From: Lachnospiraceae bacterium
GTDB taxonomy: Bacteria > Bacillota > Clostridia > Lachnospirales > Lachnospiraceae
Direction of reading: 5' to 3'
Assembly (NCBI GenBank): GCA_021202465.1
Contig: JAJQCZ010000050.1
Coordinates: 52,554-116,553, forward strand
DNA length: 64,000 nucleotides
The translations under genes were made by a program, and so were the position numbers. Under the pieces are notes generated by a model. The model saw nothing but the letters and a program-made list of their open reading frames with translations, ran no database searches and was not told the DNA's origin. Positions 4,641 to 59,142 of the stretch are shown piece by piece (within the stretch, counting starts at the first letter, position 1; each line of letters starts with the position of its first letter).

Positions 4641-6296
4641 CTATCCCGCATAGGGAAGCATCTCAAAATATTCATACTCGGAGACACCGTCGATATACAG
4701 CTCCCACACGTTCTCCTCATCGCCGTATTCATAGGAAATACTTCCGGTTTCCCCGGTGTCCTCCTCTGTAAAATACGCTGTCCCGGCATTGTCCGTGCCC
4801 GTGATGCGGATCCGGCTGCCCTCCGGGAGCACTGCAGCTTCCCCGTCTATCGTCACCGGCAGTTCCTTCACAAGCGTCAGGATGTGCCAGGCATAACCGT
4901 CCTGCAGAATCTCGAAGACCTCCTCCGTCTGTGCAAGCGTACCATCCTCTCCGATCTCATACTCCATAAGAGAATCATAATTTCCCAGAACACCCAGACG
5001 CATGACCAGCGTCATAGCCCCGGCGCTCACCGTCCCCCGCTCCAGACTGACGCTCTCCAGACTGCTCCGCAGAGTGATCGTCCCGTCTGTGATCTCATAA
5101 AGGAATGTCACATAATCATCCGACATATAGTCCGCATCGAGAAGCACAAAACTGCGCCCGTCCGCAAGCTGCAGCAGGCAGGCCTCTCCGAAGCTGCCGA
5201 ATTCTCCGACGGATACAGATTCCTCATCCAGGCACACGGAGATCGGGGACATCCCGTAATCTTCATCCACTTCCATCTTCACAGTGACGGTGCCGGACTC
5301 CGTTTTGATCTCTGTATTCTCTGAGAACTGCGCCGAACCCGTTCCCTGCAGGCCGACATAGTTGTCCTTCATATAGCCGCCCACTTCATCATAAGGGCAG
5401 GTCACACAGGCCGTGCCCATGGAATACGGTCCCAATTCATAGGGATTAAATATAAAAGTAATTCCTTCTGCATCCAGATACCAGACCGGTTCTGTCTCCC
5501 ACATGGAAGCGACGGTCTCCTCATATCCCTCAAACAGCTCGTCGCCGTATTCCCCGCCCAGTTTCTCCACGATATAAGCCTGCGCCGTTTCCTGAAAACC
5601 GTCGGCATCCTCCAGGATATCATTTAACGTCAGGATTTCTCCGCTCTCTGCACTGAAATTCACTGATGTATACCCGGAATCTCCGTGCACGCCTCCCACA
5701 TAACTATAAGACAGGATCGTCAGGCTCAGAACACTCTCATCTGCGCGCGTCACCTCAATCTCCCTGCGGGAATCATAATAATAGCTGTCGGGGTCTGTCT
5801 CCACTTCCCCGATGGACTCCGCGGCCTCCTCAGCCAGTTCCTCACAGCTCTCCCAGAAGGACGCTGTCTGCTCTTCATTCCAGAGATTCACCGCTTCACA
5901 GAGCAGATCGCAGCCCTCTCCCTGCACCTGGATGCTGTCGCACTCTGCCTGCATCAGCCACTGTTCTCCGTCCTCACTGTACCAGTTCCTGTACGTCGTC
6001 TCGCTGGTGACCTTCAGAGCTTCTTTCACATCATCCTCTGAGACAGGCGTCTCCGAATCTGCTCCCAAACTTTCCGGTTCGGCCGACTCCTCGCTGTCTG
6101 TTTCCGTCTGTACTGCGGCAGAGCTTTCCTCCCCCGACGTCCCTGTTCCGGAAGTCTCCTGTTCCGTCGTCTCCGTTTCGGAGGCTTCCGTTTCCTTTGC
6201 CGAAGCATTCCGGTCGGACGACGTACCGCAGGCAGTCAGTGCAAGACTCATAATCAATATAAAACATACGGTAAGCCTTCTTCTCTTTTTCTCCAT
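4641..6296 (-). CDS. Lipoprotein with DUF3298/DUF4163-type domain
   Basis: 551 aa exported lipoprotein. A basic N-terminus, a hydrophobic segment and the lipobox LTAC put the lipidated cysteine at residue 23. A low-complexity Ser/Thr/Glu linker (about 24-80) follows. The next part contains SYVGGVHGDSGYTSVNFS and a later beta-rich region, resembling the DUF4163-DUF3298 pair seen in RsiV and PdaC-like proteins. The C-terminal 80 residues look like a small beta domain. Function is unknown; a cell-envelope role is likely. It lies between acsB and RACo, but the acs terminator at 6388 separates it from the acs operon, so co-function with CODH/ACS is not implied. Confidence 0.7.
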   Translation of the reverse strand: MEKKRRRLTVCFILIMSLALTACGTSSDRNASAKETEASETETTEQETSGTGTSGEESSAAVQTETDSEESAEPESLGADSETPVSEDDVKEALKVTSETTYRNWYSEDGEQWLMQAECDSIQVQGEGCDLLCEAVNLWNEEQTASFWESCEELAEEAAESIGEVETDPDSYYYDSRREIEVTRADESVLSLTILSYSYVGGVHGDSGYTSVNFSAESGEILTLNDILEDADGFQETAQAYIVEKLGGEYGDELFEGYEETVASMWETEPVWYLDAEGITFIFNPYELGPYSMGTACVTCPYDEVGGYMKDNYVGLQGTGSAQFSENTEIKTESGTVTVKMEVDEDYGMSPISVCLDEESVSVGEFGSFGEACLLQLADGRSFVLLDADYMSDDYVTFLYEITDGTITLRSSLESVSLERGTVSAGAMTLVMRLGVLGNYDSLMEYEIGEDGTLAQTEEVFEILQDGYAWHILTLVKELPVTIDGEAAVLPEGSRIRITGTDNAGTAYFTEEDTGETGSISYEYGDEENVWELYIDGVSEYEYFEMLPYAG

Positions 6297-46921: not shown

Positions 46922-49900
46922 ATTTAAATCTGCGCTCCCGCGAGGGGAGCGACCGTTGCCGAGGAGCAGGTCAGTTACAAGTGCGTGATTTCAATCCACG
47001 CTCCCGCGAGGGGAGCGACCCGATGCCCGAAGTGCGGCGCGGAGGTGACGGTATTTCAATCCACGCTCCCGCGAGGGGAGCGACTACCCCACGGGTTTTC
47101 CATACCACGATAAGAAACAATTTCAATCCACGCTCCCGCGAGGGGAGCGACCAGGAGAAAGTGTGTCCACTTTCAGCGTCTACACGAAATTTCAATCCAC
47201 GCTCCCGCGAGGGGAGCGACAAGATTAGGGACAATCAATTCTGCTGATAACTGAATTTCAATCCACGCTCCCGCGAGGGGAGCGACCTGGTGCCACCGAA
47301 GACCGCGATTGCATTGTCGAAATTTCAATCCACGCTCCCGCGAGGGGAGCGACGTTATTCCAGTAACGTCGGTAACCATGCTGTACAAATTTCAATCCAC
47401 GCTCCCGCGAGGGGAGCGACGCCAGCCTGACAATATAGGCTTCCGTCTGCTTCTTATTTCAATCCACGCTCCCGCGAGGGGAGCGACTCAAGGCTGCTCT
47501 GACAGCCTACACAGACGCAGAATTTCAATCCACGCTCCCGCGAGGGGAGCGACGGAGGTGGTTCAGCTGGGGACGGATATGCTCGGGATTTCAATCCACG
47601 CTCCCGCGAGGGGAGCGACATAAGCAGAAGCAGATACTGGCCTTCCCATATAGCATTTCAATCCACGCTCCCGCGAGGGGAGCGACTCCACGGCAACAAC
47701 GGCCTGACGAACGCGAACTGATTTCAATCCACGCTCCCGCGAGGGGAGCGACTATGTGCGATTTATGTTATCATCACCTATTCGCGATTTCAATCCACGC
47801 TCCCGCGAGGGGAGCGACGTAAATGGTTAGACATTTGCGAGAAGCGAGGCATTATTTCAATCCACGCTCCCGCGAGGGGAGCGACCTGGACCTACGCGGC
47901 GCGGCTTTCTCCTAACGCATTTCAATCCACGCTCCCGCGAGGGGAGCGACGGAGACACAACTATTTCCAATGTAAAAGCTACGGTATTTCAATCCACGCT
48001 CCCGCGAGGGGAGCGACTCTGTTCCAATATCCATGGTGGGCCGATATTCGTGATTTCAATCCACGCTCCCGCGAGGGGAGCGACTATCTGAGATGGGATA
48101 CTAAGACGCATCCAGATCATTTCAATCCACGCTCCCGCGAGGGGAGCGACGTAAATGGTTAGACATTTGCGAGAAGCGAGGCATTATTTCAATCCACGCT
48201 CCCGCGAGGGGAGCGACCACTTTCCGCACCTCCCTTTTTGTGTCGGTATAACAATTTCAATCCACGCTCCCGCGAGGGGAGCGACGGGGACAGGCTCCCG
48301 CCTGGGTGATTATGAATCAATTTCAATCCACGCTCCCGCGAGGGGAGCGACATGAATCAGAATTACTCCCGCTGCATTGGACAGATTTCAATCCACGCTC
48401 CCGCGAGGGGAGCGACTTGAGGACTGGGGGTGATTCCGCCTTATTTCTGCAATTTCAATCCACGCTCCCGCGAGGGGAGCGACCTTACGCCATTGATGGA
48501 ATACCCGGACAATGCGATTTCAATCCACGCTCCCGCGAGGGGAGCGACGCAGTGTTGGCCACGCTGGAAATGAACCCGACAATTTCAATCCACGCTCCCG
48601 CGAGGGGAGCGACTAAAATGTGGTATATTATTTTCAGTAGGGCAAGGATTTCAATCCACGCTCCCGCGAGGGGAGCGACCTTGCCGTCTTCGTCCTTGTC
48701 CTTCACGTTACCAAGAATTTCAATCCACGCTCCCGCGAGGGGAGCGACCCATCCGTTGGAAAGCTGCATAGCACCTGTAGTAATTTCAATCCACGCTCCC
48801 GCGAGGGGAGCGACATCACATACTCGCGGGCCGTCGCCGTGCTGAAGGTGTAGATTTCAATCCACGCTCCCGCGAGGGGAGCGACCTATCACGCCGAGGA
48901 CTCCGACATGTGGTTTGACATTTCAATCCACGCTCCCGCGAGGGGAGTGACTAAAATGTGGTATATTATTTTCAGTAGGGCAAGGATTTCAATCCACGCT
49001 CCCGCGAGGGGAGCGACATGCACTTTCCGTAGTAAGTGCTGACTTCTTTCGAAATTTCAATCCACGCTCCCGCGAGGGGAGCGACGTCGAACTTTTCCGC
49101 TCCTATGTTTCGGTAAGTCATTTCAATCCACGCTCCCGCGAGGGGAGCGACGCAGACGAAATTGATTGCCGTATCTCCACAGTGAAATTTCAATCCACGC
49201 TCCCGCGAGGGGAGCGACGTGACAACGATGTGCAACGGCGATGCCCCGAACAATTTCAATCCACGCTCCCGCGAGGGGAGCGACTTGTCCTGCATGGTGT
49301 CGCACAGATACCCTAACAATTTCAATCCACGCTCCCGCGAAGGGAGCGACTGAAGAAAAAATTGAAGACATTCGCGCCGAAATTATTTCAATCCACGCTC
49401 CCGCGAGGGGAGCGACATCGCGGCGTTGTGCAGCGCGTACTTCTTATTCCCATTTCAATCCACGCTCCCGCGAGGGGAGCGACTCATACTTCCCGGACGT
49501 TGGTGTTCCGGATAACAATTTCAATCCACGCTCCCGCGAGGGGAGCGACTGGCGGGCGGGACTCCCCCGTCCGCCGGAAAGGAATTTCAATCCACGCTCC
49601 CGCGAGGGGAGCGACACTAATATCTTTCGCCGTACTCTTGCCTACATTCGATTTCAATCCACGCTCCCGCGAGGGGAGCGACCGAACCGGTTTATGGCGC
49701 AGGTGGAAAAAGACAGATTTCAATCCACGCTCCCGCGAGGGGAGCGACACTGGAGATATGACATACAGGGCGCCATATATCAATTTCAATCCACGCTCCC
49801 GCGAGGGGAGCGACTGTATGGACGAATCGACGAGATCGAAAGAAAGATTATTTCAATCCACGCTCCCGCGAGGGGAGCGACGATGGACTGGCAGGCAAAG

Positions 49901-51140
49901 TACAAGGAGGATTCGGATTTCAATCCACGCTCCCGCGAGGGGAGCGACGAAAACATTCAACCGGGAGAAACCGACAGCAGGAATTTCAATCCACGCTCCC
50001 GCGAGGGGAGCGACGTGTATGCTCAGGTACTCTATAAGCGGTATGTGATTTCAATCCACGCTCCCGCGAGGGGAGCGACGTCCTGGGAATTCGCAAAGCT
50101 GTTTAAGCGGATATTTCAATCCACGCTCCCGCGAGGGGAGCGACTGGATGCAGCGCTGGCAAAATTCGAGAGGAGGTATTTCAATCCACGCTCCCGCGAG
50201 GGGAGCGACCACCAACACCGATGATGGCCGGACTGGAGAAGATGATTTCAATCCACGCTCCCGCGAGGGGAGCGACATGACGTGCAGGCCAGATGCAGGA
50301 GGACGCTGTCGATTTCAATCCACGCTCCCGCGAGGGGAGCGACTATCTCACGCTCCTCCTCCGCAGTCAGAGCAGAGAATTTCAATCCACGCTCCCGCGA
50401 GGGGAGCGACACCGTCCCTGCGTTTGCGGTTCCTCCTGCATACTGCGATTTCAATCCACGCTCCCGCGAGGGGAGCGACCTAAGACGTAACGAAAGGAGC
50501 ACACCACCATGATATTTCAATCCACGCTCCCGCGAGGGGAGCGACGACGGCGTGAGCTTCACCGACCTGGACGCAAAGGATTTCAATCCACGCTCCCGCG
50601 AGGGGAGCGACCACTGCGCCAGGCCGTAGCCTGCAGAGTCCTTCACATTTCAATCCACGCTCCCGCGAGGGGAGCGACGTCGTAGATACTCTCCACGCCC
50701 TGGTGCGTCAGATTTCAATCCACGCTCCCGCGAGGGGAGCGACGTCCGCGAAGTAGGACGCCTGATCGGCCTCCATGGAATTTCAATCCACGCTCCCGCG
50801 AGGGGAGCGACACCGGCTGACGCTCGAGGAGATCGCGGCCGAACTATTTCAATCCACGCTCCCGCGAGGGGAGCGACGAGGTCGCCGCTCAGTACGGTTT
50901 TATCATTAACGAATTTCAATCCACGCTCCCGCGAGGGGAGCGACTTCCGTCGACATAGTCGTATCCGGTGATCGTGTTATTTCAATCCACGCTCCCGCGA
51001 GGGGAGCGACACGAGTAACGCGCCGCCGTGTACCTTGAAAACTATTTCAATCCACGCTCCCGCGAGGGGAGCGACATTAACAAACGCGCCGACGGGTCGA
51101 TCATTGATATTTCAATCCACGCTCCCGCGAGGGGAGCGAC
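46922..51140 (-). CRISPR. Type I-C CRISPR array, 64 repeats and 63 spacers
   Basis: The 32-bp repeat reads on the plus strand from ATTTCAATCC to GGGGAGCGAC. On the transcribed minus strand it begins GTCGCTCC, forms a 7-bp hairpin (CGCTCCC with GGGAGCG) and ends in the 11-nt handle TGGATTGAAAT, a standard I-C repeat. I count 64 repeats at 65-70 bp spacing, giving spacers of 33-38 nt. The leader is at the high-coordinate end next to cas2. The distal repeat (46922) is degenerate; repeats at 48920 and 49319 each carry one change. Two spacers occur twice (47819 = 48151; 48614 = 48952). No plus-strand reading frame across the array is real. Confidence 0.98.
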
Positions 51141-51303
51141 AGCAATATCGGGCAAAAATTTCAGAAATTATAAGTCATTTATACTCTATTCTTCCAAAAA
51201 CGTCTTATAAATTCCCAATCTATACCCGATTATTTCTTATATAACCATACGTATTATCGTGCGAAACTCGCTGTAATTTCATGCACGCTTCCTGTTCGCA
51301 CAG
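51141..51303 (-). promoter_or_regulatory. CRISPR leader
   Basis: A+T-rich 163 bp between cas2 and the first repeat. A minus-strand TATAAT at 51167-51172 places a transcription start about 20 nt before the array. A 7-bp inverted repeat GTGCGAA/TTCGCAC (51259-51265, 51295-51301) directly follows cas2 and may act in termination or leader recognition. Confidence 0.75.
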
Positions 51304-51594
51304 CTACATCATTAGGATGCCTTCCGCTTCATAGGTATTCTTCGCACCGAAATGCTCTATCTTAGTTTTATAGTTATTCCCAAGATAGTAAAAGCGCAGG
51401 CTGTCCTTTTCAGGATCAATGAGTTTCTGCAACTTGTCCTTCAGAAGCAGCGATTGCGATGCATCTACGATACATTCAAACACAGAATTCTGGACTCTCT
51501 GTCCATAATTCACACATTCTTTTGCAACTTTCCGCAATCGGCTTTTCCCTGCTCCATCGACGGTACTGACATCATATGTGATTAGCATTAACAT
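51304..51594 (-). CDS. cas2: CRISPR-associated endonuclease Cas2
   Basis: 96 aa ferredoxin-fold adaptation protein. LMLITYDVST holds the conserved aspartate after the first strand; RVQNSVFECIVD and LRFYYLGNNY follow. With Cas1 and Cas4 it captures and inserts spacers. GGGGTGAGAAC precedes the ATG. It is the last cas gene, ending at the leader. Confidence 0.97.
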   Translation of the reverse strand: MLMLITYDVSTVDGAGKSRLRKVAKECVNYGQRVQNSVFECIVDASQSLLLKDKLQKLIDPEKDSLRFYYLGNNYKTKIEHFGAKNTYEAEGILMM

Positions 51595-51608
51595 GTTCTC
51601 ACCCCAGT

Positions 51609-52610
51609 TTATTTCCAGAAAAACGGCGGATATTCATCCAGATCTCCACGTATAGTTCGCGCCAGAAGCAACGCCTGTACATAAGGAACCAATCCCCATT
51701 CTATTTTCTCTTTCAAATATGGATGGGTGATTTTCTCCCTCTTTCGTGTCTGCCACTCACTGAAAAATATCTTTCTGCCTTTATCATTCAGATAAACGGC
51801 GCCATCTTTTTGCTTTTCAAAGTGGGTGGCATTTATCTTCCTCATATTAATCAGCGTCAATACGAACCGGTCTCCCGAAACAGCACGAAGTTCCTCCATC
51901 AGGTCTAGCGCCAGTGATTTTCTGCCCGGACGGTCACGATGCATAAACCCTACATAAGGATCCAGGCCAACACTCTCCAGCGCATTTGCACAGTCATTCG
52001 CCAGAACCGTATAAGAAAAAGACAGCAAGGCATTCACATTGTCGAGCGGCGGCCTGCGATTTCGATTTCTGAAAATGAAATCATCTTTTTGATTCAGGAT
52101 TAACTCGTCAAAGATTCCAAAGTAACACTCTGCCAGCTTTCCCTCTTTTCCCCTCAGCTCATCCATCGTCTGAATAAGGGGAATGTTCTGATAGCCATCC
52201 TTTAAGGTTTGCGAGGCCGTTCGCAGGCGATCCACATTGACTCTTAGTGCATGATCCCTTATGGTCCTCTCAATATTCCAGCGGCAATTATATACCTTCC
52301 CAAGAATCATGTTTCTTGCGTAGACTGTACTTTTTTCCAAGGAATCTGAGATGCGGTACTGCTCTTTGCGCAGCAAAACATTACCATATTCTTTTCCTCT
52401 GATTCTCGCAAGGAATTTCCCTGTCGGAGAATAAAAACATAAGCCGATCTTTCTGTCGGCACATGCACCCATGAAGGCCGGAGACGCTCCTTTATACGTA
52501 AAGCATATAATATTTTCCAGCGTATGCAGAGGAACTCTTCCGAGTGTGACATCTCCGTTCACAACCACCACATTTTCGCCATCTAGAGTCAGATACGCGT
52601 CCTCTGTCAT
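51609..52610 (-). CDS. cas1: CRISPR-associated integrase Cas1, type I-C
   Basis: 333 aa from the first ATG. Metal-site residues lie in GKEGKLAECYFG (Glu), HRDRPGRKSLALDLMEE (His, Asp) typical of Cas1. I-C Cas1 proteins normally begin with M-K/R-KLLNTLYV ten codons upstream. Here those ten codons are intact in frame (RKLLNTLYV) and AAAGGAGG is well placed, but the expected start codon is ACG (52640-52638). The ATG at 52610 has no ribosome site. Either initiation is weak at ACG, or the protein lacks its first strand, or the base is miscalled. Confidence 0.93.
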   Translation of the reverse strand: MTEDAYLTLDGENVVVVNGDVTLGRVPLHTLENIICFTYKGASPAFMGACADRKIGLCFYSPTGKFLARIRGKEYGNVLLRKEQYRISDSLEKSTVYARNMILGKVYNCRWNIERTIRDHALRVNVDRLRTASQTLKDGYQNIPLIQTMDELRGKEGKLAECYFGIFDELILNQKDDFIFRNRNRRPPLDNVNALLSFSYTVLANDCANALESVGLDPYVGFMHRDRPGRKSLALDLMEELRAVSGDRFVLTLINMRKINATHFEKQKDGAVYLNDKGRKIFFSEWQTRKREKITHPYLKEKIEWGLVPYVQALLLARTIRGDLDEYPPFFWK

Positions 52611-52624
52611 GACATATAAAGTAT

Positions 52625-53320
52625 TCAGCAGCTTTCTCGTGCTCCGTCCTCCTTTCCCGCATCCTCATCGGCAAGATGAGCTTCAATGTACTTCGTAACC
52701 GTTCCCTTTTTTTGCAGCTTCGGCACACATAGATCAGCCAAAGAACAGGATTTGCACTTTTTTGAAGACTTTACCTTCGGCGTATATCCGCGATCGAAAT
52801 ACTCATGCATTTCCAAAACACATTGACGTACATAATCCCGCAGCTCATGGCCAAAAGATACACTGGTGCGCCGCTTTGTCTCTCCATAATAGAGAAATCC
52901 CTCGTCAATTTGCGTCAGGAACATTTCTTCCAGACACATCGCCTGAGCGCAGAGCTGTACCTCATCTTCCTTACCTTCTTTTGCTTTCCCTCGTTTGTAT
53001 TCAATAGGAACTATTTTCCAGCATCCCTCGTATCCAAAAACGTTAACACCCTCTGCCGCCCTATGAAATTCGACCACATCACACTGGCCAGTCAGTCCCA
53101 GCTGCGGCGAAGCGATACGCAGCCCCCGGGCAATCATCGTGTCTCCACGTTTTTCGAATTTGCTTTCGTCGTGAGCATTCTTATGCATCAATTCACCAGC
53201 AGTGGTCTGATAGTTCTCAGCCCACTGCTGTTCGATATGAATCAATGCCCACTGCCTTCGGCAAAACACAAAGTGCTGTAGGCCGGAAAGGAGCAGATAG
53301 TCGTCTTCTTTATATGCCAT
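52625..53320 (-). CDS. cas4: CRISPR-associated exonuclease Cas4
   Basis: 231 aa RecB-type nuclease with an iron-sulfur cluster. FVFCRRQ gives the first cysteine and CKSCSLADLC the other three. Nuclease residues are in LTGQCDVVEF and VPIEYKRGKAK (Asp, Glu-x-Lys). Cas4 trims and orients prespacers so that the correct PAM side is inserted. Its 3' end overlaps the expected true start of cas1 by 16 bp. Confidence 0.96.
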   Translation of the reverse strand: MAYKEDDYLLLSGLQHFVFCRRQWALIHIEQQWAENYQTTAGELMHKNAHDESKFEKRGDTMIARGLRIASPQLGLTGQCDVVEFHRAAEGVNVFGYEGCWKIVPIEYKRGKAKEGKEDEVQLCAQAMCLEEMFLTQIDEGFLYYGETKRRTSVSFGHELRDYVRQCVLEMHEYFDRGYTPKVKSSKKCKSCSLADLCVPKLQKKGTVTKYIEAHLADEDAGKEDGARESC

Positions 53321-53323
53321 AGA

Positions 53324-54211
53324 TTAATCCCTGCAAATACAGGTAACTCCTTCCGGCCATTCAGAAGGTATCGTCAAATTGTAGTCTTCAAAGCTCCGCG
53401 GGACATCAACACCTTCCCTTTTCACGATTTTAATACCGTCAAATAGCTTATAAGAAGGAGCATTTCCCAATTCACTGTCATGTCTGAAAATAATCAGCTT
53501 CCGAACGGCCATCTTTCCTCTGGCAGCGGAATGATCATTTTCAAACATATTCAGGATGCTCTGCCAGAGCAGTTCCAGGTCATCTTCTGAAAATCCTGTC
53601 ACTTTCCGGGCCAGATTTGCTGACACATAGCCTTCTGCACGATACAAACCGTACGGCACAATATACTTTCGGCCCATCTCTGTGTTCTTTTTCTTCGCAT
53701 CATCCTCTGTGGTAATCGCGACTCTCGTAATCGTGATCTCCTGGGGAATGATCGGATCAACAGAACGCGCAAACCCGATTTGTACCGGTCCGCGAACCTG
53801 TCCGCAGTTCAAATTATCCCGGACAAACGTCGTCATAACAGCGCCGAAGGTACGGATATCATAGAAATTCCCGCACATATAATCACGCACTTTTTCGTCT
53901 AATGCCGGATCATTTTTCTTCATTGCCTTTACCTGCGCCGGATCCATGCCAAGCGAATTATATGCCTCTTTGTCACTTGCATTTAACGGAACATTTTCTT
54001 TGATGTAAATACGGTAACCGGTCGCATCTTCCTTGATCATTTCCACATAATTCCGAATCTTTCTTTTCAGGCATACATCCGTCACCAGACCACACCCGGT
54101 TTCCGGGTCTACGCGCGGCATATTTCCGGCATCCGGATCTCCATTCGGATTCCCGTTTTCCACATCGAACAGCACCACAAAATCATATTTGTTTTTGATT
54201 ACGTCACTCAT
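53324..54211 (-). CDS. cas7: Type I-C Cascade backbone protein Cas7
   Basis: 295 aa Cas7 (Csd2) with the N-terminal FVVLFDVENGNPNGDPDAGNMPR typical of the family and RGPVQIGFARSVDPI in the middle. Multiple copies coat the crRNA spacer in Cascade. AAAAAGGAGGAG precedes the ATG, which overlaps the cas8c stop region. 3 bp separate it from cas4. Confidence 0.97.
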   Translation of the reverse strand: MSDVIKNKYDFVVLFDVENGNPNGDPDAGNMPRVDPETGCGLVTDVCLKRKIRNYVEMIKEDATGYRIYIKENVPLNASDKEAYNSLGMDPAQVKAMKKNDPALDEKVRDYMCGNFYDIRTFGAVMTTFVRDNLNCGQVRGPVQIGFARSVDPIIPQEITITRVAITTEDDAKKKNTEMGRKYIVPYGLYRAEGYVSANLARKVTGFSEDDLELLWQSILNMFENDHSAARGKMAVRKLIIFRHDSELGNAPSYKLFDGIKIVKREGVDVPRSFEDYNLTIPSEWPEGVTCICRD

Positions 54212-54574
54212 TTACTTCTCCTCCTTTTTCTGGTAGCGTTTCTGTGTCTGATGGTAATATCCCAACTGGAATGACCCCTGCTCCGGCAAAGTCATTCTGT
54301 CGGGGAATTCTTCTCCTATTTTCCCCATAATATCCTGTATATTTTTTTCAAAATATACTTTTTTGTTCATCTCTTTGATCTTCTTTAAATGCTTCTGCGA
54401 CAAATTGATCAGAAGCGGAAAGATACGAGACGGTGTCGAAGCCGCTGTATTAAAGTATTTATCTTTAATCGTAGCATTAATACCAGGATTTGCTTCCTGT
54501 TGAATATGCTCCAACACAGCAAATAGCCGTCCCAGATTATAGGGAATGTTCGTACTTTGTCCATTCAATTGCAT
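54212..54574 (-). CDS. cas11c: Embedded small subunit Cas11c (internal start in cas8c)
   Basis: Within cas8c an in-frame ATG at codon 461 (54574) has GGAGGAGG eight nt upstream, an ideal ribosome site inside a coding region. The product would be 120 aa, helical, beginning MQLNGQSTNI. Type I-C systems are known to make Cas11c this way, and it forms the belly of Cascade. The internal site here is seen directly; its use is inferred. Confidence 0.75.
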   Translation of the reverse strand: MQLNGQSTNIPYNLGRLFAVLEHIQQEANPGINATIKDKYFNTAASTPSRIFPLLINLSQKHLKKIKEMNKKVYFEKNIQDIMGKIGEEFPDRMTLPEQGSFQLGYYHQTQKRYQKKEEK

Positions 54575-55954
54575 TTGCAGCACCTCCTCCGGACATTTTG
54601 AATTTGTATTTTTCAGGTAAAAAGCTTTAATAATCGCCGCCCGTCCCCTTGTGATGTTATGTTCTGCCCGAACCCGAAGCATGACCCCATTTACCAGGGA
54701 GTCCGGATAATAGCTGTCCGATAAGATAGCTTTCATCGTATCCGCTGCCATTTGCGGCGAAGGGCTCTTATCTTTTGCCTTCTGATTCACTGTCTCCTGG
54801 AGCATTTTCCATACCGGCAGCCTTTCAAACGGATCTTTCGCCGGACGTATAATCTCCATGCGCTGATAATGTCTGGCTACATTTCTCAGGAGATTTCCAA
54901 AAGAGTCCTGATAGAAAAAACGAACCGACAGCCTTGCGGCATTTGGCGCCAGCCCAAGAATATAGAAAGGCCTGTCCATATCAAGATCCAGCTCCTCCAT
55001 ATCCAACGGATCTCCCCGGAGCGCGGCCTTCAAAATCGCCCGAAGATCGTCTTCGGATATTTTACTGCGATCGCTTTCCCCCAGAAATGCAGCAAGCGCA
55101 GCATCCTGGTACTTTTCTTCGCCTCCCTCTGCCCAGCACACAACAGTAGTATCACCGACGCTTCTTACATGCTCCCGGTCATTCAACAAATGGTTCAAGG
55201 CCGCCCCATAAGCTGCCGCAGCATATTCGCCGACCGAAGCATTTTTTCCCTGTTCTTTTCCATAAGAGCAAAACGCCGGGGCATTATACGAAACCAGGGA
55301 TGTTCCCATTGCCTGTGCCCCATAGATTCCTTTTATAACAGGATGAAGAATCGCAGCTTTGGTTTTCTTTCCGGTCACCATACAGATGCAGTCTGCCGCT
55401 TCATCTGTATGATCATAATGCTCCTGCCAGGCCGCTCTGATCTTTACATCTTCCACTGAAGGCTGACCTTCAACATACAAAAGAATATTCGCGCCTTTCA
55501 TCAGGTCTTTCCAATGAGAAACGATACACTCGTATTCCTTCACTTTTTCCGGTTCCCAGTGATCGAGAAAAAGAAGAATGGCTTTTGCAGTCTCTGAATC
55601 AAGCGCAGCCAGAATATCCTGATGCAGTTTCCGAAATGCCTGAAAGCATTGCCGGGAACGCTCCGGTTTTCCTTTTTCATCAATGCCAAATACATACGAG
55701 GAATTATCACAGAGGAAATTCGCGCTTATCCCGCTGGCACGTTTAACCCGCTGTGGAACCTGCATGTCACGAGGCACCATCACTTTTTTCTTTCCATTAT
55801 CAATCTCCCGCTTGAGTGAAACCAGATCCAGGAGTTTTCCCTGCGAGTCAATATTCAGCTGAAAGGATACCTTCTCCGTTCCCCAGCCAGGCTGCGGGAT
55901 CTGACCTTTTTCCAGCAGATCCTCGTAATGTCTTACCAATGCCTGTAATATCAC
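54212..55954 (-). CDS. cas8c: Type I-C large subunit Cas8c
   Basis: 580 aa (Csd1). Blocks typical of the family: VPRDMQVPQRVKRASGISANFLCDNSSYVFG, ICMVTGKKTKAAILHPVIKGI and FYILGLAPNAARLSVRFFY. Cas8c recognises the PAM and recruits Cas3. The last 120 residues can be made separately as Cas11c from an internal start. It overlaps cas5 by 4 bp. Confidence 0.96.
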   Translation of the reverse strand: MILQALVRHYEDLLEKGQIPQPGWGTEKVSFQLNIDSQGKLLDLVSLKREIDNGKKKVMVPRDMQVPQRVKRASGISANFLCDNSSYVFGIDEKGKPERSRQCFQAFRKLHQDILAALDSETAKAILLFLDHWEPEKVKEYECIVSHWKDLMKGANILLYVEGQPSVEDVKIRAAWQEHYDHTDEAADCICMVTGKKTKAAILHPVIKGIYGAQAMGTSLVSYNAPAFCSYGKEQGKNASVGEYAAAAYGAALNHLLNDREHVRSVGDTTVVCWAEGGEEKYQDAALAAFLGESDRSKISEDDLRAILKAALRGDPLDMEELDLDMDRPFYILGLAPNAARLSVRFFYQDSFGNLLRNVARHYQRMEIIRPAKDPFERLPVWKMLQETVNQKAKDKSPSPQMAADTMKAILSDSYYPDSLVNGVMLRVRAEHNITRGRAAIIKAFYLKNTNSKCPEEVLQMQLNGQSTNIPYNLGRLFAVLEHIQQEANPGINATIKDKYFNTAASTPSRIFPLLINLSQKHLKKIKEMNKKVYFEKNIQDIMGKIGEEFPDRMTLPEQGSFQLGYYHQTQKRYQKKEEK

Positions 55955-56595
55955 ATGATCACCTCACAATTTTCAACCTCCATGACTCCCTGGTTAAGCT
56001 GTGCATGAAAGAACATCGGCTGAATATTATCCAGGTCTTCATAATTCATGTCATACAACATATAACCCAGATCCTTATCAACCGGAATAGGACGAATCAC
56101 TTGTCCTTCCCACGCACGAAAATGTGCAGGGAACTCCCGACAACCAAAATACGGCTGATGATAACACTGCCCCTTTCGGATCCGCCGCTTTAAAATGTCC
56201 TGAAATTTTCCCGGATTGTCACTCGGCGCCGCTTTCGAAGTCATGTCAAAATGAGCTTCGATCACATAGCGTACATCCTGCAAGACCAGCGATGACCGCT
56301 GATTTCTCTCATCCGAGGTATTCAGGTACAGATCGCCTTTACCATCAATCATCGTTTTTCTCACATTACCGGCCAGTATCTTTGATTTTACTTCATTTCT
56401 TTTAATACTTGTCGTTCGAATCGGATTCATGACATATATTCTGTCAATTTTGTACTCGAGGCCAGGATGCCAGAATACTGCTTCAACAATTCCCCGTGCT
56501 GCAGATGGAGTCATCACATCATACGAAACCCTCTCTGTCTTGAGTTCCGGGCGGCTGAAGCAGGCATAGTCCCCAAAAACTTCCAAACGAATCAA
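55951..56595 (-). CDS. cas5: Type I-C Cas5 (crRNA-processing endonuclease)
   Basis: 214 aa from a TTG start at 56595, which has AAAAGGAGG and a 7-nt gap; an ATG at 56619 would place the ribosome site inside the gene. In type I-C Cas5 replaces Cas6: it cuts the repeat at the hairpin base, leaving an 11-nt 5' handle, and stays bound to it. The N-terminal LEVFGDYACFSRPELKTERVSYDVMTPSAARGIVEA is typical. First gene of the cas5-cas8c-cas7-cas4-cas1-cas2 transcript. Confidence 0.95.
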   Translation of the reverse strand: MIRLEVFGDYACFSRPELKTERVSYDVMTPSAARGIVEAVFWHPGLEYKIDRIYVMNPIRTTSIKRNEVKSKILAGNVRKTMIDGKGDLYLNTSDERNQRSSLVLQDVRYVIEAHFDMTSKAAPSDNPGKFQDILKRRIRKGQCYHQPYFGCREFPAHFRAWEGQVIRPIPVDKDLGYMLYDMNYEDLDNIQPMFFHAQLNQGVMEVENCEVIM

Positions 56596-56614: not shown

Positions 56615-56641
56615 TTCATTGGTTTTACTTGTTAAGTATCA
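56615..56641 (+). promoter_or_regulatory. Predicted Cascade self-target on the cas5 promoter
   Basis: Plus strand TTC (56615-56617) followed by ATTGGTTTTACTTGTTA. TTC is the usual type I-C PAM, and the following 24 nt agree at 18 positions with the guide of the crRNA-like RNA at 56744. The site covers four bases of the -10 box and the expected start of the cas5 operon. Confidence 0.75.
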
Positions 56642-56666
56642 TATCCCTCTTTCATAAATTTGTCAA
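56638..56666 (-). promoter_or_regulatory. Promoter of the cas5-cas8c-cas7-cas4-cas1-cas2 operon
   Basis: Minus strand TTGACA (56661-56666), 17-bp spacer, TATGAT (56638-56643): a near-consensus, strong promoter. Expected start near 56631, giving a leader of about 36 nt to the TTG start. Confidence 0.8.
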
Positions 56667-56696
56667 GACTTTCCGCTATTTTTTTTTATGATAATT

Positions 56697-56705
56697 TGCT
56701 ATACT
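56697..56705 (+). promoter_or_regulatory. Extended -10 promoter of the crRNA-like RNA
   Basis: Plus strand TGC-TATACT (TG at 56697-56698, -10 at 56700-56705). No -35 match is needed with an extended -10. Start expected at about 56712, the first base of the degenerate repeat. Confidence 0.6.
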
Positions 56706-56711
56706 GTTACC

Positions 56712-56795
56712 GTCATCTTAAATAGATAGATGTGGATTGAAATATTGGAGTTACATGTTATGCAGCAGCGGGCGACAAAACCATCTTGTCGCCCG
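56712..56795 (+). ncRNA. crRNA-like cas-regulating RNA (CreR type)
   Basis: 56712-56743 is a 32-nt degenerate repeat, the same length as the array repeat. It keeps the first 3 nt (GTC) and the last 12 (GTGGATTGAAAT); the middle differs but can still fold (CATCT with AGATG) right before the 11-nt handle TGGATTGAAAT. The guide starts at 56744 (ATTGGAGTTACATGTTA) and is followed by a 10-bp hairpin CGGGCGACAA/TTGTCGCCCG (56769-56795). There is no second full repeat and no T-run, so the 3' end is uncertain. Cas5 could process and bind it like a crRNA. The guide's partial match to the cas5 promoter beside a PAM suggests repression without cleavage. Confidence 0.75.
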
Positions 56796-56821
56796 TTACT
56801 GTTGCTGTACGCCATTCCCAT

Positions 56822-59023
56822 TTAATCAAAAAAGATTCCAATTCCCGTTTCTACATCCATCTGCAGCCCTGTCTTGGAATCATAATTCCTCATATCGTCT
56901 AATTCATAGATGCCTTTTGCGATTTCTCTTACCAAACCCTGATCCATCATTTTTTGAAACTGATATTCCGGCAGAGAAATCCCATACTGCTGCAGTTTCC
57001 GGTAAATCGCTCTGTCTGCATGTCCTGACTCTACCCTCTGCAAATATTCTTTCACGGTATCATCTGCAGGGATATAGATGGTTCTGGTATCGTTTTCGAT
57101 CAACTTAAACAGGCGCGCCACCGTCGCAAACGGGAAGAAGTTCTCCTTCTGATCCCATATCTTTAAAATACCTTTTTCATCCAGATTTTCCTGCCCCAGA
57201 AGCTCCCGATAATACCGAAAATAAAAAGCGATCGCCTCCGACCCATTTACCTTTTCATATTTCCGCAATGTTTCACGCAAAGCCCCACGGCTCAGCTCCA
57301 TGCGGGGATTACTCTCCTCCTCCAGTGAGAATGAAAATACTTCGCTGGATCCTTTTGGACGTTTTCCCTCGCGGTTGCAGCGTCCTGCAGCCTGAATCAG
57401 AGAATCCAGGCCTTCTTCTTCTCGATATACAGCAGGAAAATCCAGATCTACTCCCGCCTCGATCAACGATGTCGATATTACTTTGCAGGATTTTCCGTCT
57501 TTAAGCCGTTGTTTTATCTCTGCAATCTTCTTTTTCCTGTCCGCAGGATAAATCAGCGTTGTAAGACAATAGCTCCCTTCTCCCTCTAAACGATGATACA
57601 GCTCCTGCGCGGTGGCTTTCCTGTTTACGACACATAGAACCTGATCGTATCTGTTTAATCTCTCTTCCAATTGCGTCTTCGTTATAATCCCGAGATTTCT
57701 GATCGTAACCCGTTCAAAGACCAAGGCTTCTTCTTCCGTGCAGCTCCCGCATATCTCCTTCAGCTCCAAACCGGGAATATATTCCTTAAAGTACGATTCC
57801 AAGGCCGGCTGCGTCGCTGTACAAAGCACCGCCGTTGCTCCATAATTGCTGACCAATTGGGCAATCGCAGCAATGCAGGGTTTCAGATAAGGAACCGGTA
57901 ATGTCTGTGCTTCATCAAATACAATCACGCTGTTGCACAGATTGTGAAGTTTTCTGCATTTGGAGCTTTTGTTCGCAAACAATGATTCAAAAAACTGCAC
58001 TGCCGTTGTGACGATGACAGGAGCATCCCAGTTTTCCGTTGCCAGAACATTTCTTATCTGCCACGGTTCACAGTCGTTTTCGTCCAAATCTAATTGCACT
58101 CCGGAATGATGCTCAACAACATTATTCCTTCCAAAAATCGAAGAAAAAGTCTCCGCCGTCTGGTCAATAATAGACGTGTAGGGAATCACATAAATGATTC
58201 TTTTCATGCTTTTATGCGCTTCCACATGACGCAGCGCAAATCCCATGGAAGCTGTTGTTTTTCCGCCCCCGGTAGGCACTGTAAGCGTATAAAGACCCTT
58301 GGGAAGTCTTTTTCCCTTTTCCATGCATTCCCTGAGAATCTTCGTTCGGCATTGATATAATGGTTTGACTGATCCGGGTGGATGCAGCCATGCATCTGTG
58401 TACTCGTCAAATTTCTCAATCAATGTCTCAAATGTATCATATCCACTCCGGCTTTCTGCTTTTCCCCTATCCATAAAGCCTTCTGTATCTAAATAGTCTG
58501 CATCCACCAGGCAGGAATAAAGCATACGCATAAAAAAAGCCGAGCTAAAACCACTATTTCCCACATAGTCTGGCAGCTTCATCCTGTAATCATTCTTTAA
58601 AAGCTCTGCCAGATCTTCCTTCCAGCACGAATAATCGGGAATATCTGCTTTCATTCTTCCAAAATAGGTCCCGTCTCCGGCAAAAGCACTCATGCCGTTC
58701 CCACCGTCCATCAGCCCGCTGTGGTGCCCGGCAATCACCATTCCCTCCAGCGGATTCGTCTCTTTGGCCCCTGCCGTAGAATGATCGATTTTTCCATATT
58801 TCTCCGGATTTCGTATTCTTCTTTGGAAAGCATCCGAATATTTCCCAATATCATGCATCAACCCGCAATGATATCCCATTTCTTCACAGCCAAACCCAGC
58901 GGCAAATTCCCCCGCTTTCTTTGCTGTCCCCATCAAATGCTCTTTCACAGACTGTTCGTTACCCTCAGAATCAATATGCGCAATAAATCTTCCTGTCTCT
59001 GTCATCTTCTCCTTCTCACCCAT
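56822..59023 (-). CDS. cas3: CRISPR-associated helicase/nuclease Cas3, type I
   Basis: 733 aa from the ATG at 59023 (GAAGG seven nt upstream); TTG at 59077 or ATG at 59005 are alternatives. N-terminal HD nuclease with GLMHDIGKYSDAFQRRI, then a superfamily 2 helicase: VPTGGGKTTASMGFAL (Walker A), IVFDEAQTLPVPYL (DEAQ box) and QAAGRCNREGK (motif VI). Recruited by Cascade, it nicks and degrades target DNA. It has its own promoter, so effector genes and cas3 can be regulated apart; the crRNA-like RNA is transcribed towards its 3' end. Confidence 0.96.
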   Translation of the reverse strand: MGEKEKMTETGRFIAHIDSEGNEQSVKEHLMGTAKKAGEFAAGFGCEEMGYHCGLMHDIGKYSDAFQRRIRNPEKYGKIDHSTAGAKETNPLEGMVIAGHHSGLMDGGNGMSAFAGDGTYFGRMKADIPDYSCWKEDLAELLKNDYRMKLPDYVGNSGFSSAFFMRMLYSCLVDADYLDTEGFMDRGKAESRSGYDTFETLIEKFDEYTDAWLHPPGSVKPLYQCRTKILRECMEKGKRLPKGLYTLTVPTGGGKTTASMGFALRHVEAHKSMKRIIYVIPYTSIIDQTAETFSSIFGRNNVVEHHSGVQLDLDENDCEPWQIRNVLATENWDAPVIVTTAVQFFESLFANKSSKCRKLHNLCNSVIVFDEAQTLPVPYLKPCIAAIAQLVSNYGATAVLCTATQPALESYFKEYIPGLELKEICGSCTEEEALVFERVTIRNLGIITKTQLEERLNRYDQVLCVVNRKATAQELYHRLEGEGSYCLTTLIYPADRKKKIAEIKQRLKDGKSCKVISTSLIEAGVDLDFPAVYREEEGLDSLIQAAGRCNREGKRPKGSSEVFSFSLEEESNPRMELSRGALRETLRKYEKVNGSEAIAFYFRYYRELLGQENLDEKGILKIWDQKENFFPFATVARLFKLIENDTRTIYIPADDTVKEYLQRVESGHADRAIYRKLQQYGISLPEYQFQKMMDQGLVREIAKGIYELDDMRNYDSKTGLQMDVETGIGIFFD

Positions 59024-59142
59024 CACAAAACCTTCAAGCAGAAAATAGTCGTCTCTATCCCTGACAAGATTTAACAACTATTTTTATTAGTCTCGCCAGG
59101 GCAGGCAGGTTAAGCTTTCCCTCCATCTGTCCTGCTGAGCAT

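Follow-up and report, generated by a model that had tools for sequence, protein, structure and literature searches.

Self-regulation of a CRISPR effector through a natural guide RNA is known from tracr-L of Cas9, with which the effector represses its own promoter. Liu et al. 2023 are said to have described CreR, a group of cas-regulating RNAs, and Shmakov et al. 2023 reportedly described CRISPR-derived regulatory elements, that is, standalone repeats near cas genes whose guides are partly complementary to cas promoters. Type I-C systems are used for editing and CRISPRi, and positions 6 and 12 of the guide are free in type I-C Cascade. CreR are given for types I-B, I-E and V-A (PMC13131331), competition by crRNAs and release by anti-CRISPRs are described for CreR (PMC12737573), and the type I-B CreA pairs at positions 1-5 and 7-11 beside a TTC, mutation having shown that changes at positions 6 and 12 are tolerated (PMC8501985). 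The Racr are solo-repeat RNAs of phages and include RacrIC1 (PMC10651486).

A crRNA-like element between cas3 and cas5

The stretch of DNA analysed here, called the window, comprises 64,000 nt from Lachnospiraceae bacterium (GCA_021202465.1, contig JAJQCZ010000050.1, positions 52,554-116,553 of the forward strand). A type I-C locus occupies its minus strand in the order cas3, cas5c, cas8c, cas7, cas4, cas1, cas2, followed by the array, and the gap between cas3 and cas5 holds a solo repeat with a guide. The parts of the locus are as follows, in window positions.

49241..51153, CRISPR array, repeats read on the minus strand
51304..55954, minus strand, cas8c, cas7, cas4, cas1 and cas2, the remainder of the predicted regulated operon
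55951..56595, minus strand, cas5c (TIGR01876), with a probable TTG start
56615..56617, plus strand, TTC PAM, read from the sequence (TTC in 34 and TTT in 4 of the 38 loci compared below)
56618..56634, plus strand, core of the target within the cas5 promoter, covering the predicted start site and leader
56638..56666, minus strand, predicted cas5 operon promoter TTGACA-N17-TATGAT, from a motif scan
56697..56705, plus strand, predicted promoter of creR, an extended -10 (TGC-TATACT) whose end is 6 nt upstream of the repeat
56712..56743, plus strand, degenerate solo CRISPR repeat, last 12 nt as in the array repeat
56733-56743, plus strand, predicted 11-nt handle inside the solo repeat
56744..56760, plus strand, 17-nt guide ATTGGAGTTACATGTTA, target matched at 14/15 read positions
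56762..56802, plus strand, stable hairpin 3' of the guide, without a T-tract in the window
56822..59077, minus strand, cas3, upstream of the solo-repeat element; no guide target found before cas3

The start of cas5 is probably the TTG at 56595 rather than the ATG at 56619, since a Shine-Dalgarno sequence, AAAGGAGG, lies directly before it and the cas5 genes of two relatives (L006 and L007) start at the same residue. No Cas5c match was obtained in any of the ten same-genus genomes searched (G001-G010), so that the system is patchy in the genus.

An earlier sequence-only reading of this DNA had proposed a repeat-like 32-nt element at 56712-56743 in the cas3-cas5 gap, and this is borne out: the sequence, GTCATCTTAAATAGATAGATGTGGATTGAAAT on the plus strand, is identical over its last 12 nt to the array repeat of the locus, GTCGCTCCCCTCGCGGGAGCGTGGATTGAAAT. 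Its hairpin is weak, at -3.1 kcal/mol versus -13.0 kcal/mol for the array repeat. Among the 27 loci (described below) with an array in reach, the handle of the solo repeat is identical to that of the local array in 15, differs by one mismatch in 9 and by two in 3. In many loci (L015, L036, L038 and others) the solo repeats measure only 24-27 nt from GTC to guide, against 32-33 nt in array repeats, with both loop and stem shortened.

The element has a -10 box of its own. The best -10-like hexamer lies 6-7 nt before the GTC of the repeat in 37 of 38 loci, the remaining one (L027) receiving a spacing of 3 from the automatic choice of hexamer, and a box matching at least 5/6 at 6-7 nt is present in 33/38 loci, the rate at 5194 control positions within these gaps being 5.3%. 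This fixed spacing suggests that transcription would begin at the repeat. On the other side of the guide, the window has a hairpin of -27.7 kcal/mol over 60 nt; all 38 loci have one at this place (-18.6 to -40.5 kcal/mol over 60 nt), its stem begins at guide position 18-29, and in 37/38 loci it is more stable than all 50 mononucleotide shuffles. A T-rich tail accompanies it in 11/38 loci, the window not being one of them, and a scan of the window called no terminator at this hairpin, where there is no T-tract. The hairpin may end transcription in some loci, and it may replace the 3' hairpin of mature type I-C crRNA. A second flanking repeat makes the mini-CRISPR form of CreR and is not known to be required; in the window, no second handle with up to two mismatches lies beside the guide, and a hairpin of unrelated sequence is found there instead.

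Guide and target in the window

When the guide is read from 56744 and the protospacer from 56618, 18 of 24 positions are identical, with mismatches at 6, 7, 12, 18, 20 and 22 and a TTC at 56615-56617, so that the alignment on which the sequence-only reading was built is reproduced in full. Over the 15 read positions (the 17-nt core, with 6 and 12 left out) the match is 14/15, and the TTC adjoins the target on its 5' side. Dinucleotide shuffling of the gap, repeated 20,000 times, never gave 14/15 beside a TTN PAM and gave 13 three times. The pattern TTCATTGGNNTTACNTGTTA has a single exact match in the 3.1 Mb genome, namely the cas5 promoter, and when three mismatches are allowed it additionally finds the guide itself and three other places. 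The spacers of the window's own array were likewise compared with the cas5 promoter (29 handles), and the best of them reached 11/15, without a PAM.

Since the repeat stands alone, one could ask whether it acts as a Racr-like decoy, an RNA that ties up Cas5 and Cas7 and whose guide has no role. Solo type I-C repeats can indeed inhibit, as RacrIC1 does (PMC10651486), but the element seen here belongs to a cas locus and has a promoter box of its own, and its guide is matched to a PAM-flanked target, which makes a decoy extremely unlikely.

The TTGACA-N17-TATGAT promoter that had been proposed for cas5 scores 11/12 (56666-56638, minus strand). The scan found 2 promoter-like sites, against 1.5 per region in shuffles, and since shuffles give nearly as many, the motif alone is weak evidence. 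The target had also been placed on both the -10 box and the start site of this promoter. The latter half of that statement stands, with the start site at about 56631 as predicted from the -10 box; the former does not hold for the core kept by relatives, which is 17 nt long (56618-56634) and stops 3 nt short of the -10 box at 56638-56643. That box would be covered only if the protospacer were longer, by its positions 21-26, and the placement on it is therefore true only in that case, the selected core being 17 nt.

Relatives with and without the element

We collected the best 80 of 121 Cas5c loci from genome contigs together with 14 further loci from relatives, one of which is the window (L095, counted once). 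Of these loci, 93 of 94 could be placed on cas5, and the one left over (L089) was searched separately and was negative. Handles were sought with up to two mismatches, read opposite to cas5 and 100-320 nt upstream of it. They occur in 40 distinct loci including the window, 38 of which have a guide match of at least 12/15 in the gap; these 38 positives are the window and 37/80 of the best 80 of 121 Cas5c loci, the other 43/80 being without a recognised element. The element was found in none of the other 13 relatives. Among the loci that carry it are those of the culturable Flavonifractor plautii (L053), Agathobaculum desmolans (L022) and Butyricicoccus pullicaecorum (L048). Selection at a minimum of 12/15 raises the match at the read positions, though not at 6, 12 or 18 and beyond.

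Two handle-bearing loci fall below the threshold and are counted as negative, L035 with 11/15 and L047 with 10/15. By eye, the match in L035 (11/15 ungapped, TTC) runs well beyond position 17 with a 1-nt shift, and the pair is perhaps young or drifting. A relaxed handle (up to five mismatches) in the 53 loci without a handle produced weak 12/15 matches in L057, L085 and L090, which we take for chance, and a search with any handle across the whole locus in 55 loci found none at 12/15.

The cas3-cas5 gap, measured to about residue 10 of Cas5, is 209-443 nt long in the 37 positives besides the window, whereas among 50 measured negatives it is at most 179 nt in 42 and at least 215 nt in 8. These lengths indicate that the element occurs where cas5 has a promoter of its own. 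In a wider sample, among the matches listed, scores of at least 12 were found in 10/49 class-level loci and in 1/69 phylum-level loci; one of these positives (L169) has only 12/15. When targets were reversed as a control, 1/131 loci scored at least 12, 13 of the 131 belonging to the first set. The wider search used the clostridial handle, with which elements built on other repeats would be missed.

Co-variation of guide and target

The sequence-only reading had been made to depend, beforehand, on co-variation of guide and target in relatives, and this co-variation is both present and strong. The 38 loci, which form 27, 16 and 9 Cas5 clusters at 90, 80 and 70% identity, carry 38 different guides and 37 different targets. 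Positions 1-5 match in all 38 loci, positions 7-11 in 36, 36, 38, 36 and 38 of them, and positions 13-17 in 34, 36, 36, 31 and 25, while from position 18 onward matching is near chance. Positions 6 and 12, which were not used in the selection, match in 7/38 loci each, the swap expectation being 0.24 and 0.21 of 38. The proposal that mismatches 6, 12 and 18 of the window sit at positions unread by type I Cascade thus gains from the comparison, in which 6 and 12 are free. The pattern fits a type I Cascade that would read five bases and skip one, three times over, and the PAM beside it is TTC in 34 loci and TTT in 4.

When guides were swapped between Cas5 clusters, the maximum was 11/15 in 1182 trials, compared with 12-15 for own pairs. 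Under a looser control, without the PAM and with close relatives included, at least 13 was reached in 20/1640 swaps versus 37/41 own pairs (the window being counted twice). Closely related loci show the same dependence from one change to the next: of the 71 guide changes that fall on read positions in 14 disjoint close pairs, 60 are accompanied by a compensating change in the target, against 3 of 46 at positions 6, 12 and 18-22. Over all 57 close pairs, which overlap, 321 of 387 guide changes are compensated.

These data bear on the view that the element is a functionless remnant of an old mini-array whose spacer came from the cas5 promoter by chance. The repeat is degenerate and alone, as decay would leave it, and L035, with its longer, shifted match as judged by eye, is what a young or decaying case would show. 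Against this, guide and target co-vary over 16 Cas5 clusters, and the handle, the -10 box and the 3' hairpin have all been kept, so that we consider mere decay very improbable.

Position of the targets

Judged by the best-scoring promoter of each gap, 16/38 targets are located downstream of the -10 box, one of them with a 2-nt overlap, and 20/38 upstream of the -35 box, the promoters of 2 loci (L022 and L070) being uncertain; 7/38 targets are on the other strand. This distribution matters for the notion of an antisense small RNA that needs no Cascade and stops translation by base-pairing to the cas5 mRNA leader. In the window and in the other loci with downstream targets, the predicted cas5 leader is complementary to the guide, but transcription from the promoter would leave out the 20 targets that lie upstream of its -35 box, those on the other strand do not suit such pairing, and neither the free positions 6 and 12 nor the PAM nor the array handle would be expected of an antisense RNA. 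There is accordingly very little chance that this explanation is right, and repression by Cascade remains our reading.

In 11/38 loci PAM plus core reach into the region from the -35 box to the start site, no more than under random placement (0.41 expected). The guides thus aim beside the hexamers and not at them, so that a wider footprint of Cascade or of polymerase would be required for repression.

The window has a leader of about 36 nt between the predicted start site and cas5, which follows directly. In L052 and L053 the cas5 leader, again from the predicted start site, exceeds 100 nt, and an inverted repeat is visible in it. In L125 a promoter about 350 nt upstream of cas5 is matched by the guide (15/15, TTC), and the roughly 300 nt between this promoter and cas5 contain several small ORFs, one 35 codons long; a small gene may intervene here. 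One could therefore speculate about an addiction module of the CreTA type, in which the guide silences a toxin and cas5 is affected merely as a neighbour; the guide design is the same as that of CreA, and L125 offers space with small ORFs. The leader of the window, however, leaves no room for a toxin gene, and we give this explanation next to no credence compared with direct repression of the cas5 operon.

Second targets, for example before cas3, were sought over 554 kb and appeared only in L007 (12/15) and L052 (13/15), both beside TTT, the latter apparently a near-palindrome at the locus's own target. Two guide-specific patterns run against viral contigs gave no copy that could be a phage mimic.

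A predicted autorepression loop

The element is in all likelihood a type I-C CreR, a predicted crRNA-like RNA with which Cascade would repress cas5-8-7-4-1-2. The autorepression reading draws on the co-variation of guide and target, while production of the RNA, autorepression itself and its release by crRNA load or an anti-CRISPR are inferred from the precedent of CreR and CreA. The RNA would begin at the first base of the solo repeat, and Cas5c would cleave below the small hairpin to leave an 11-nt handle. Loaded with this RNA, Cas5, Cas8c and Cas7 would bind the promoter over three 5-bp blocks (1-5, 7-11 and 13-17), a match so short that Cas3 cleavage would not ensue, and the promoter-bound complex would block RNA polymerase. 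Array crRNAs or anti-CRISPRs would draw Cascade away and repression would ease, with cas3 standing outside the loop.

A broader picture, which we offer tentatively and rate a little short of an even chance, is that clostridial type I-C systems have a widespread built-in sensor, a one-repeat mini-crRNA with a 17-nt guide in which a 3' hairpin replaces half the spacer. The short Cascade formed on it would repress the cas5 operon, would be unable to call in Cas3, and would report both crRNA load and anti-CRISPRs.

If the loop works as read, deleting one small RNA gene would change Cascade levels, and studies of type I-C immunity or of anti-CRISPRs in Clostridia would need to take it into account. 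The 38 natural guide-target pairs also constitute a data set on the match that type I-C Cascade needs for binding without cutting, namely 15 read positions in three blocks that end at position 17.

Comparison with known systems

The literature that we searched names no type I-C CreR; Liu et al. 2023 and Shmakov et al. 2023 lie outside that search, and we make no claim of absence from print. With tracr-L the element shares the principle of an effector that represses its own promoter via a natural guide RNA, such repression being predicted here, while tracr-L belongs to class 2 and is a long tracrRNA form, an RNA unrelated to the present one. The elements of Shmakov et al. 2023 are reportedly mostly two-repeat mini-arrays, whereas the present element has one repeat.

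The Racr likewise consist of a single type I-C repeat outside an array, but they are phage-borne decoys; the present element is not carried by a virus or plasmid but stands within a complete cas locus, between cas3 and cas5, and has a PAM-flanked target that its guide matches. The likeness to CreA of CreTA goes further, since the sources describe a degenerate repeat, a TTC PAM, base-pairing in the blocks 1-5 and 7-11 that leaves 6 and 12 free, and, in the H. hispanica form, one repeat and a terminator (PMC8501985, PMC9458426). CreA represses a toxin, however, whereas the target here is the cas5 operon promoter, which in the window drives no small toxin gene (a leader of about 36 nt leads straight into cas5), and a third block, 13-17, is kept.

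CreR comes closest. A crRNA-like RNA (predicted here), a degenerate repeat, a partial match to a cas promoter and Cascade as the repressor, the last as we infer it here, are common to both; a degenerate repeat that stands outside the array and keeps the local handle is found in the window and in the 27 loci compared, and the guide is partly complementary to a cas promoter beside a PAM. The present element differs in belonging to type I-C, in its selected 17-nt match in three blocks, and in its layout in the cas3-cas5 gap, where a lone repeat precedes a hairpin and the element is read in the direction opposite to cas5. Autorepression of cas genes by a crRNA-like RNA is thus a principle already known for types I-B, I-E and V-A, and what looks new, within the literature searched, is the type I-C subtype, the three-block 17-nt guide and the form with one repeat plus a hairpin.
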